Below, piece by piece: positions 22,006-25,263 of a stretch of DNA of 64,000 bases. The first letter of the stretch is position 1. Each line of letters opens with the position of its first letter. The stretch is from positions 1 to 64,000 of the forward strand of contig NZ_FODC01000007.1 in assembly GCF_900110275.1 (NCBI RefSeq), given 5' to 3'. Position numbers and translations under genes: made by a program. The stretch is from Duganella sp. CF517 (lineage in GTDB: Bacteria > Pseudomonadota > Gammaproteobacteria > Burkholderiales > Burkholderiaceae_D). Under the pieces are notes generated by a model, which had not been told where the DNA came from, did no database searches, and worked only from the letters and a program-made list of their open reading frames with translations.

Positions 22006-22124
22006 GGGGTCAAGTCTGTCATTCGGACACGGGCTGGTCTTTAGCGTGTCTGGCTACCTGTCATTACGGCGCGGGCGGGTGAGGGATGCGGATGGGGCCG
22101 TGTCCGAATGTCAGACTTGACCCC
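22006..22124. repeat. dispersed palindromic repeat, copy B
   Basis: Left arm 22006-22031 is identical to the left arm of copy A; right arm 22099-22124 is its reverse complement with one mismatch (T for A). The 67-base loop is longer than in copy A and contains a further GTGTCTGGCTACCTGTCATTACGGCG stretch that looks like an additional degenerate core. It fills the gap between the amidohydrolase and the convergent LysR gene. Confidence 0.85.
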
Positions 22125-22138
22125 GTTCCCCGCGCTGT

Positions 22139-23047
22139 TTACCGGTGCGCGGCGTAATCCTTCAGGGTTGTCTGCATGAAGTCGATGAACAGCCGCACGC
22201 GCGACGGAATCAGGCGCGATTCGATGATCGCGTGGACCGGCGCCGGCGAGACGTCCCAGTCCGGGAGCACGCGCCGCAGCGTGCCGCGTAGGGCGTCGTC
22301 GCGCATCTCCGGACCCGCCGAGATGGCGATGCCCACGCCCAGCGTCGCCAGGGTGCGGCACATGCTGACGTTGTTGGCGCAATAGCGCCCGGAGACGTCG
22401 ACCGTGGTGGTTTGTTTTCCCGACGTGAGCGTCCACCGTGATTGTTTTCCCGACGCCGCCTGGATCACGCATTGGTGGTGCGCGAGGTCTTGCGGGTGTT
22501 CGAGCGGCGGCGCGTCGCGAAGGTACTGGGGCGCCGCGAACAGGTAGCGCGGCAGCAGTCCTATCTGGCGGGCGATCAACGTGGACGGCGTCGGCGGCGG
22601 CGCGCCGATGCGGATCGCGCAGTCGAAACCGTCCGCCACCAAGTCGATGCGGCGCGGCGTCAGATCCATTTCGAAATCGATTTGCGGATACAGCTCGCCG
22701 AAACGCTGGATTGCCGGCGCCAGGTAGCTGATCGCCAGGTCGACCGGCATCGACACGCGTAGCAGCCCGCTGGGACGCTCTGCCAATTCCATCAGCGATT
22801 CGTGCGCGATGCGCGCCTCGGCGACGATGCCCTGGCAGCGGCGGAAGTACGCCTGGCCCGCTTCCGTCAATTCCACCTTGCGGGTGGAGCGGTGGAAAAG
22901 GCGCACGCCGATTTCCTTTTCCAGGTCGGAGATGCGGCGCGAGAGCGTGGAATTGGGCATGTCCAGCTGCTCGGCCGCGCGGCGGAAGCCCTTGGCGTTC
23001 GCCACCGCCACAAACAACTCCATACTCGCCAGCAGTGTCATTGCCAT
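22139..23047 (-). CDS. LysR-type transcriptional regulator next to the OYE-MDR fusion
   Basis: The 302-residue protein has the LysR winged helix at residues 1-65 (AKGFRRAAEQLDMPNSTLSRRISDLEKEIGVRLFHRSTR in shortened form) and a substrate-binding domain with PVDLAISYLAPAI and GFDCAIRIG. It belongs to the large branch that commonly controls neighbouring oxidoreductases. It diverges from the fusion gene across 101 bases containing a T-N11-A palindrome, so it probably regulates that gene. ATG 23047 is used; a second in-frame ATG two codons later is possible. Confidence 0.9.
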   Translation of the reverse strand: MAMTLLASMELFVAVANAKGFRRAAEQLDMPNSTLSRRISDLEKEIGVRLFHRSTRKVELTEAGQAYFRRCQGIVAEARIAHESLMELAERPSGLLRVSMPVDLAISYLAPAIQRFGELYPQIDFEMDLTPRRIDLVADGFDCAIRIGAPPPTPSTLIARQIGLLPRYLFAAPQYLRDAPPLEHPQDLAHHQCVIQAASGKQSRWTLTSGKQTTTVDVSGRYCANNVSMCRTLATLGVGIAISAGPEMRDDALRGTLRRVLPDWDVSPAPVHAIIESRLIPSRVRLFIDFMQTTLKDYAAHR

Positions 23048-23105
23048 TGCTCCATCGGTGGATCAGTGATTTCATTTTAAGCTATTTATCCACTGGCAGG
23101 AACAA

Positions 23106-23148: not shown

Positions 23149-25134
23149 ATGAACCAGCTCTCCACCGCAGTCAAGATCGGCCCTTACGACCTCCGCAACC
23201 GTATTTTCATGGCACCGATGACTCGCTCGCGGGCCAACGACGCCGACGGCGTCCAGTCCGAGCTCGCCGTCACCTACTACCGCCAGCGCGCCAGCGCGGG
23301 CCTGATCATCACCGAAGGCACCTTCCCTAGCGCGATGGGCAAGGGCTATGTCGCCACCCCCGGCGTTTACAGCGACGCCCAGGTCCAGGCCTGGAAGCGC
23401 GTCACCGACGCGGTCCACGCCGAGGGTGGACGCATCTTCCTGCAGTTGATGCACACCGGCCGCATCTCGCATCCGTCGATGCTGCCGCAAGGCGCGCTGC
23501 CGGTGGCGCCGTCGGCCATCAAGGCGGCCGGCCAGGCTTACACGATGTCCGGCATGGCCGATTTTGTCACCCCGCGCGCGCTGGAGACGGCGGAAGTGGC
23601 GGGCGTGGTGGACGAATACCGCATGGCCACGCGCCGTGCGTTGGAGGCGGGCTTCGATGGCGTCGAGCTGCACGCGGCGTCGGGCTATCTGCCGGAGCAG
23701 TTCCTGTCCTCCGGCACCAATGTGCGCACCGACCAATACGGCGGCTCGGTTCCTAACCGCGCGCGCTTTATCCTGGAGGTGCTGCAAGCGATGATCGCGG
23801 AGGCGGGTGCGGACCGCGTCGGCATAAAAATCTCGCCGGAGATGGGCTTCAACGACATCGTCGACGCGAACCCGGTCGAGACCTACACCTATCTGGTGGG
23901 CCAGTTGGCTCCTTTGAAGCTGGCCTATCTGCACGTGGCGCTGTTCAAGGCGAGCTACGACTATCACGGCGCGCTGAAGCCGTTGTTCGGTGGCGTCTAC
24001 CTGCTGGGTGGGGGCCAAACCCGCGAATCCGGCGAGCAGCGCATCGCCGCCGGCGAGGCCGATGCCGTGGTCTATGGCAGCACCTTCCTGGCCAATCCCG
24101 ATCTGCCACGCCGCTTTGAACTGAACGCCCCGCTCAACGCGCCCAAACCAGCATTGTTCTACGTTCCGGGGCCGCAGGGGTATATCGACTATCCGGCGCT
24201 TGATGAAGAAGGTGGCAATCGCGCGCTGCGCGTGCACGCGTATGGCGGCCCGGAGGTTTTAGGGTGGGACGAAGTGCCGGTGCCGCAGCCAGGGGACGGC
24301 GAGGTGCTGGTGCGCGTGACGGCCGCCGGTGTCAACGGCCTCGATTGGAAGATTCGCGACGGCTTGGTGCGGGACGCATTCCCATTGCCGCTGCCGGCCA
24401 CGCTTGGCATTGAGCTGGCCGGCGAGGTCGCCGCTATCGGCGCGGGTGTCGAAGGCTACGCGATCGGCGACCGGGTGCACGGCGCGCTCGGCGCGTTGGG
24501 CGCGTATGCCGGCCACGTGGTGATCGGCGCCGCCAGGCTGGCGCGGATTCCGTCGGCCACCGACGATGCCACCGCCGCCGCCATCCCGGTCGCATCGCTG
24601 ACGGCCTGGCAGTTGCTGTTCGAAGCGGGACAACTCCAGCGCGGCGAGACGGTGCTGATCCACGGCGGCGCGGGTGCCATCGGCAGCTTCGCCGTGCAGT
24701 TCGCGAAGCAGGCCGGCGCCCGGGTGGTGGTCACCGCGCGCGGCCGCAACGCCGATCTGCTGCGCCGCCTTGGTGCCGACGACGTGATCGACTATCAGCT
24801 CGTCCGATTCGAGGAAGCCGTCAACGACATCGACCTGGTGCTCGATTTGGTGGGAGGGGAGACCTTGGCCCGTTCCTGGCAGGTGCTGTCGCCGAAGGGC
24901 CGCATCTTCACCACGGCGGCGCCGGAGATCGCGGCGCAATTGTCGGCGGGACGGCGCGGTGGCTGGTTCAGGATGCGCTCGGACGGCGCCCAACTGGCAG
25001 CGATCGCGGGCAAAGTGGCCGCTGGCGACCTGACCGTGGTGATCGATGAAGTGGTGACGGCCAAGCAGGCAGGCGATGCCATCGAGCGCAACAAGCAAGG
25101 CCACGGCGCGGGCAAGACGGTGATCCGCTTCTGA
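23149..25134 (+). CDS. fusion protein: Old Yellow Enzyme (ene-reductase) domain + MDR quinone oxidoreductase domain
   Basis: One uninterrupted 661-residue frame. Residues 1 to about 350 are a complete FMN-dependent OYE barrel: APMTRSRA with Thr25, HTGRISH, and HAASGYLPEQFL with His175 and Tyr180. The second proton/substrate-binding position, usually Asn or His, is Ser178, and the place of the substrate-gating Trp holds Met101. After a short linker (LDEEGGNRAL) residues 360-661 are a complete medium-chain reductase of the quinone oxidoreductase class without zinc Cys ligands: RVHAYGGPEVLGWDEVPVP, NGLDWKIRDG, HGGAGAIGSFAVQFAK (NADPH site, 505-520) and LGADDVIDY. Both usually occur as separate enzymes. 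The likely role is NADPH-dependent reduction of activated alkenes or quinones in the cytosol. GAGGAACTTGAA precedes the ATG. Confidence 0.9.
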   Translation: MNQLSTAVKIGPYDLRNRIFMAPMTRSRANDADGVQSELAVTYYRQRASAGLIITEGTFPSAMGKGYVATPGVYSDAQVQAWKRVTDAVHAEGGRIFLQLMHTGRISHPSMLPQGALPVAPSAIKAAGQAYTMSGMADFVTPRALETAEVAGVVDEYRMATRRALEAGFDGVELHAASGYLPEQFLSSGTNVRTDQYGGSVPNRARFILEVLQAMIAEAGADRVGIKISPEMGFNDIVDANPVETYTYLVGQLAPLKLAYLHVALFKASYDYHGALKPLFGGVYLLGGGQTRESGEQRIAAGEADAVVYGSTFLANPDLPRRFELNAPLNAPKPALFYVPGPQGYIDYPALDEEGGNRALRVHAYGGPEVLGWDEVPVPQPGDGEVLVRVTAAGVNGLDWKIRDGLVRDAFPLPLPATLGIELAGEVAAIGAGVEGYAIGDRVHGALGALGAYAGHVVIGAARLARIPSATDDATAAAIPVASLTAWQLLFEAGQLQRGETVLIHGGAGAIGSFAVQFAKQAGARVVVTARGRNADLLRRLGADDVIDYQLVRFEEAVNDIDLVLDLVGGETLARSWQVLSPKGRIFTTAAPEIAAQLSAGRRGGWFRMRSDGAQLAAIAGKVAAGDLTVVIDEVVTAKQAGDAIERNKQGHGAGKTVIRF

Positions 25135-25144
25135 CGAGAACTTC

Positions 25145-25263
25145 GGGGTCAAGTCTGACATTCGGACACAGGCTGATCAATAATGTGATATCAAAATGTT
25201 ATTTCCGACTCGGGCTGCCGCCGGCTGCGGATGGGGTCGTGTCCGAATGCCAGACTTGACCCC
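25145..25263. repeat. dispersed palindromic repeat, copy C
   Basis: Left arm 25145-25170 (GGGGTCAAGTCTGACATTCG...) and right arm 25238-25263 (CGTGTCCGAATGCCAGACTT...) are reverse complements with a few mismatches, loop 67 bases, the same loop length as copy B. It separates the fusion gene from pyrC. The right arm ends in TTGACC, which could serve as a -35 for a TAAAAT at 25277-25282 in front of pyrC, though the 15-base spacer is short. Confidence 0.85.

Follow-up and report, generated by a model that had tools for sequence, protein, structure and literature searches.

Known fusions involving Old Yellow Enzyme domains

Old Yellow Enzymes (OYEs) are FMN enzymes that use NAD(P)H as the hydride source for the reduction of electrophilic alkenes, maleimides, and quinones. 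In zinc-free MDR reductases, hydride passes directly from NADPH to a quinone or to the C=C bond of an enal or enone. Fusions of an OYE-type domain with other enzymes are already known, and one of them contains a gut-bacterial 5β-reductase of the OYE family. This is the nearest known fusion in spirit to the gene reported here. The 5β-reductase fused to a 3β-HSDH/isomerase is reported to have given the products of consecutive steps in E. coli, where the steroid products were assayed; the two enzymes are fused in 61 of 257 homologues and are separate neighbours in others, and the 3β-HSDH/isomerase partner has remote homology to PF01073 (PMC12238238). The present gene resembles that system in joining an OYE-family reductase to a C-terminal Rossmann-fold enzyme and in occurring either fused or separate, but differs in that the partner is an MDR reductase, the host belongs to the Burkholderiales, and the substrates are predicted ones (PMC12238238).

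The bifunctional salicylyl-CoA 5-hydroxylase/OYE (NF006101) is likewise a fusion with an OYE domain, but its partner domain is a different one and lies on the N-terminal side; its model matched the present protein only partially (134.8 of 1078 bits), far from the equivalog cut-off. The genome studied here also encodes a 788-aa paralogue (L007, contig C17), the OYE-like part of which comprises residues 413–626 and which is perhaps of this type. No description of an OYE–MDR fusion was found among the titles and abstract openings listed by searches of an open-access paper library, and the architecture may be present in protein databases without a paper.

Architecture of the fusion gene

The window, a 64,000-nucleotide stretch of a contig from Duganella sp. 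CF517, contains an OYE–MDR fusion gene and a divergent regulator gene (Table 1). Translation recovered the same frame of 661 codons that an earlier note, made from the sequence alone, had described as running without a stop; it starts with ATG and contains one stop codon, which is terminal. Residues 8–329 matched the Pfam family Oxidored_FMN (PF00724; E = 1.5e-71) with 241.9 bits against a gathering cut-off of 27, covering profile positions 6–341 of 342, which identifies a complete OYE domain. In the C-terminal half, ADH_N (residues 382–468; 59.6 bits, cut-off 23.5) and ADH_zinc_N (residues 510–599; 58.9 bits, cut-off 31.8) both exceeded their gathering cut-offs, and ADH_zinc_N_2 was found at residues 541–659. 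When the sequence was searched against solved structures, the OYE homology spanned residues 5–351 (phmmer matches to NostocER1, CtOYE, and XenB), and the MDR homology, with quinone oxidoreductases as matches, extended from approximately residue 358 onward. The two complete domains proposed in the earlier note therefore stand, with the OYE at residues 1–349 and the MDR at residues 357–661, but the linker consists of seven residues (350–356), not about ten, and is bounded by the D-Y-P at the OYE terminus and the N-R-A-L of the MDR.

Table 1. Positions of the features of the OYE–MDR locus in the window
Feature	Coordinates	Strand	Basis
Divergent LysR-type regulator, constant neighbour of the locus	22139..23047	-	Pfam HTH_1 + LysR_substrate
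Imperfect inverted repeat resembling an operator, TGCTCCAT-N3-TGGATCA, in the intergenic region of the two divergent genes	23048..23065	.	Upstream-region alignment
OYE–MDR fusion gene, 661 aa	23149..25134	+	Single frame; Pfam; same architecture in relatives
OYE (Old Yellow Enzyme, NemA/XenB-like) domain, residues 1–349	23149..24195	+	Pfam, PDB sequence matches, AF2 + Foldseek
Met101; Trp at this position in 52/61 more distant OYE rows	23449..23451	+	OYE row tally
His175-Ala-Ala-Ser178; H-x-x-S instead of H-x-x-N	23671..23682	+	OYE row tally
Linker Ala350–Gly356, 21 nt	24196..24216	+	Located where split relatives have the ATGA gene overlap
MDR domain (zinc-free quinone/enone oxidoreductase type), residues 357–661	24217..25131	+	Pfam, PDB sequence matches, AF2 + Foldseek

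The MDR half retains the glycine-rich dinucleotide motif GAGAIG in conserved glycine columns. The whole 661-aa protein contains no cysteine, so the MDR half is without cysteine zinc ligands. The chance of finding no cysteine was approximately 0.002, as estimated from 11 neighbouring genes. An adaptation to electrophiles was considered for this absence and rejected, because other OYEs are also poor in cysteine, with means of 1.16 in 61 other OYE rows versus 0.71 in the 55 rows of the clade to which the fusion's OYE belongs.

In comparison with the known enzymes of each type, the OYE half shares the complete barrel and the Thr/His/Tyr residues of the NemA, xenobiotic reductase B, and CtOYE type, and differs in having Met101 for Trp, H-x-x-S for H-x-x-N, and a C-terminal MDR; it scored 350.5 bits with the NemA model (NF007899), its best in NCBIfam, which is below the curated cut-off of 403. 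Similarly, the MDR half has the whole MDR fold, GAGAIG, and a cysteine-free sequence in common with the zinc-free MDRs (QOR, PIG3, γ-ketol reductase, and FaEO), but has only 29–32% identity to the structures, comprises 305 residues, and lies behind an OYE; its best NCBIfam model, PIG3 (TIGR02824), gave 192.2 bits against a curated cut-off of 296.8.

Active-site residues of the OYE half

Thr25, His175, and Tyr180, which we take to be the OYE active-site residues, were invariant in all 116 distinct OYE rows. The classical substrate-binding pair of OYEs is H-x-x-H/N. The fusion has Ser178 at the second position, and as this position is variable, the OYE family label holds but "classical" does not. 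Met101, His175, and Ser178 were all found as the earlier note had given them. However, the unusual active site is no peculiarity of the fusion: the Met/Ser pair was present in 54 of the 55 distinct OYE rows with at least 58% identity (the 55th was Met/Thr), and 29 of the 54 were solo OYEs with no MDR gene found behind them. It is a trait of the clade, many unfused OYEs included, which also takes in genes from Zoogloea and Ectothiorhodospira. The 61 more distant OYE rows comprised 50 with Trp/Asn, eight with Met/Asn, two with Trp/Phe, and one with Phe/Ser. The five PDB alignments listed represented one enzyme and its variants, all with Trp and Asn, and the nearest solved OYE found was only 50% identical, so no structure from inside the Met/Ser clade turned up. 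Met101 and Ser178 could alter the chemistry of the enzyme.

Distribution of fused and split forms

Six short peptide patterns, by which only close relatives are detectable, gave 73 loci when scanned against 84,980 species genomes. The classification covered 146 loci; OYE matches starting after residue 29 or ending before residue 331 did not enter it. The fused architecture was found at 23 of the 146 loci, a count that includes the locus in the window and some genomes entered twice from two sources, and these corresponded to 15 distinct OYE sequences, again with that of the window included. At 14 further close loci (10 distinct), the OYE and MDR are separate genes that overlap by the four bases ATGA. 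Three distant loci (L112–L114; OYE 46–48%) had an MDR relative behind the OYE or farther down; they were classed as pairs but, being distant, are not among the 14 close split loci. No MDR was found behind the OYE at the remaining loci of the 146.

The 14 other distinct fused sequences were 63–93% identical to that of the window over the full length, and the nearest named locus was that of Duganella sp. 1411 (91%). A fused full-length frame with no internal stops was present in nine of 74 genomes of the genus and, in a family sample of 392 genomes, in 10; both counts include the window's own genome. In the order sample (399 genomes), a full-length match occurred in the own genome only, among the matches listed, best first, and the same held for the class sample (369 genomes) among matches with E of 1e-125 or better. 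Named fused loci beyond the genus were those of Paraburkholderia acidicola, Aquabacterium, Pelomonas, and Herbaspirillum. DNA searches gave no match for the fusion gene in E. coli genomes and none for the downstream spacer in plasmids.

The linker codons varied among the fused sequences with the frame intact. This bears on whether an assembly or base-calling error joined two genes, which is conceivable insofar as relatives with two overlapping genes do exist. A joining error is nevertheless extremely improbable, because 14 other distinct fused sequences come from separate assemblies, with 63–93% full-length identity, and the frame stays open even though the linker codons differ. The earlier note had claimed a genuine one-piece fusion, to be contradicted if every relative proved to be two separate genes; homologues with both domains exist in several genera and families, although 14 close loci are split, and both domains are under selection (see below). 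The fusion thus appears to be natural and conserved.

Junction, selection, and evolutionary history

The OYE stop codon overlapped the MDR start codon as ATGA at all 14 close split loci, and the split gene pair is probably translationally coupled. From the D-Y-P codons (D-Y-A in L019) to the codon aligned with Asn357, the distance was a constant 20 nt at these 14 loci, versus 18, 21, or 24 nt at the 23 fused loci (linkers of 6–8 residues). Therefore, a small net frameshift at the overlap divides the two states.

In the best tree from the concatenated domains (39 rows of distinct sequences, with 11 solo OYEs as the outgroup), fused and split forms were intermingled. When all fused rows were forced into one clade, the log-likelihood decreased by 29 (AU test, p = 0.025), and none of 200 bootstrap trees (0%) needed only one change of state. 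A single origin of the fusion is thus disfavoured, yet the well-supported branches, taken by themselves, require no more than a single switch of the fused label. In contrast to the fused rows, the split rows together with three partner-lost rows could be forced into one clade without rejection (AU test, p = 0.26), so that an early fusion followed by fission is also possible. The single-domain trees conflicted in detail: the OYE tree grouped the Massilia pairs with those of Dyella and Caballeronia, and the MDR tree placed them, at support <95, together with the fusions of Aquabacterium and Pelomonas. These trees suggest that the fused forms probably do not constitute one clade and that the state probably changed more than once, in either direction, with the pair or the fusion as the ancestral form.

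Codon-aligned comparisons of the window's sequence with each of the 14 other distinct fused sequences, from which it was separated by dS of up to 1.8, gave dN/dS values of 0.06–0.34 for the OYE part and 0.16–0.35 for the MDR part (14 of 14 comparisons each), and of 0.20–1.45 for the seven linker codons in the 10 of 14 comparisons that gave a value. The low values of both halves indicate that purifying selection maintains both as working proteins and acts far less strictly on the linker. As a rival reading, two coupled genes might have become joined through an indel at the ATGA overlap without any benefit to function, leaving the domains independent, as the small net frameshift between the 20-nt split and 18/21/24-nt fused junctions and the probable repeated switching of state would allow. 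We consider such a neutral fusion unlikely, given that all 15 distinct fused sequences keep the frame open, with dS values of up to 1.8 from that of the window, and that this frame was found across several genera and families.

Predicted structure and domain arrangement

The whole fusion was predicted with AlphaFold2 from 82 rows with a mean pLDDT of 93.1 and a pTM of 0.68, and the MDR part alone from 25 rows with values of 93.2 and 0.92, respectively. The pTM of the whole chain fits two well-folded domains with no defined mutual orientation, and the predicted model lends no support to a fixed domain arrangement. In Foldseek searches, the top fold for the OYE half was CtOYE (6s32; 50% identity, TMt 0.98), and the folds near the MDR half were Coxiella quinone oxidoreductase (3tqh; 32% identity), Arabidopsis γ-ketol reductase (5a3j; 29%), and strawberry enone oxidoreductase (4ida; 31%), which, judging by their titles, are reducers of quinones or unsaturated carbonyls. 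This fold similarity suggests that the MDR half may act as an alkenal/enone oxidoreductase.

The predicted arrangement also bears on a cascade, for example two reductions in succession on a dienone, a quinone, or an oxylipin, in which one domain would produce the substrate of the other and the fusion would have been selected for its hand-over. Such channelling would accord with the 15 distinct fused sequences and the tight coupling in the split forms, with a plant homologue of the MDR half that was solved, by its title, with an oxylipin, and with the precedent of the steroid 5β-reductase fusion (PMC12238238). We nevertheless regard it as improbable, because the linker of merely 6–8 residues is little constrained, the pTM of 0.68 gives no sign of fixed docking, and, by general chemistry, each domain should saturate C=C bonds, which would usually leave a product that the other cannot use as a substrate. 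Hand-over of a product between the domains is possible, with nothing that favours it.

Locus context and apparent partner loss

A divergent gene related to the window's LysR was located 95–137 bp upstream at all 23 fused and all 14 close split loci, and such a relative was also upstream at 21 of the 31 solo OYE loci with at least 60% identity. At four of these 21, from two genomes, it was 877–888 bp away, with an SDR-like gene between in the one viewed by eye. The inverted repeat between the divergent genes occurred within two mismatches in all distinct upstream regions of the fused (15 of 15) and split (10 of 10) loci, and within three mismatches in 10 of 17 solo regions, the pattern having been derived from the very alignment that was scored, in which the rows are related to one another. 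In 4,200 single-base shuffles, it appeared at two or fewer mismatches in none and at three in 0.2%.

The block of LysR and fusion genes is flanked by GGGGTCAAGTCTG-N-CATTCGGACAC repeats in inverted pairs (22006–22124 and 25145–25263). These presumably are REP-like; 181 copies within three mismatches were counted in the genome, and a reversed control pattern gave 0.

Some relatives appear to have lost the MDR. In Massilia aquatica L026 (and L135, identical in this stretch), a short frame lies behind the OYE in which apparent MDR residues 2–11 run directly into the last eleven. These pieces are short and each is weak alone (E = 0.7 and 0.4), but because of their order and position, the frame looks like the scar of an internal deletion in the MDR gene. 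In Caballeronia mineralivorans (L039) and Dyella lipolytica (L018), approximately six codons resembling the MDR start are suggestive of such a loss. Four loci (L124, L170, L022, and L029) have an OYE of the same clade next to LysR and, downstream, pirin and/or isochorismatase-type genes as alternative partners. The apparent loss of the MDR in certain relatives, together with these other partners elsewhere, indicates that the MDR is dispensable to the OYE. Freestanding MDR relatives (52–55% identity) had a different LysR neighbour at all five loci viewed, so each half can work alone; one genome (L170) contains both modules, approximately 12 kb apart.

A protein search of plasmids gave 89 records with one place covering at least 80% of the query, of which 15 were listed and five fetched. 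On two plasmids (L112 and L113), more remote OYE and MDR genes share a cassette next to TetR: the order is SDR, OYE, and MDR in Sphingomonas insulae and SDR, OYE, hydrolase, and MDR in Agrobacterium fabrum. On a Streptomyces plasmid (L115), OYE and MDR relatives adjoin in reversed order, with the MDR first.

Proposed function and significance

We favour, with some confidence, the reading that this natural fusion of reductases provides two complementary NADPH-dependent sites per chain for the detoxification of unsaturated carbonyls or quinones. We infer its substrates, cofactors, induction, and benefit as follows. In the OYE half, FMN would be reduced by NAD(P)H and pass hydride to an electrophilic C=C bond in enones, maleimides, nitro compounds, or quinones. 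The MDR half, which would need neither zinc nor flavin, would use NADPH as the direct hydride donor for quinones or for acyclic alkenals and enones. One polypeptide would thereby supply two reductase sites at a fixed 1:1 ratio. A reactive electrophile would probably induce the gene via the divergent LysR protein, and the benefit of the fusion would lie in stoichiometry and in keeping the two sites together, not in a sealed channel.

This reading of two complementary reductase sites is supported by the complete domains, the folds predicted with high confidence, the invariant Thr25, His175, and Tyr180, the 15 distinct fused sequences, the 14 split loci with their exact 4-nt overlap, the fold neighbours of the MDR half, the dN/dS values, and the constancy of LysR and the repeat in both fused and split loci, as well as by the distant OYE and MDR genes that share plasmid cassettes in Sphingomonas and Agrobacterium and by the precedent of the 5β-reductase fusion. 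Counted against it are the scores of both halves below their best NCBIfam cut-offs, the apparent loss of the MDR, the alternative partners, the freestanding MDRs, and the chance that Met101 and Ser178 signify a different chemistry. More speculatively, and in our estimate doubtfully, the protein may represent a new type of enzyme: a tandem ene-reductase whose flavin and flavin-free sites would share one substrate class or act on consecutive bonds of one molecule, and which would have arisen more than once by frameshift at the four-base overlap.

The locus draws attention to an OYE clade in which two substrate-site positions are Met and Ser, and it gives biocatalysis two mechanistically different reductases ready-made on a single chain. 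If the fusion did arise repeatedly at one overlap, one and the same locus could be compared directly with its parts fused, split, or with the partner lost. The locus is a natural test of the benefit of gene fusion, in which the same enzymes occur fused, overlapping by 4 nt, or with the partner apparently deleted, seemingly under one regulator.
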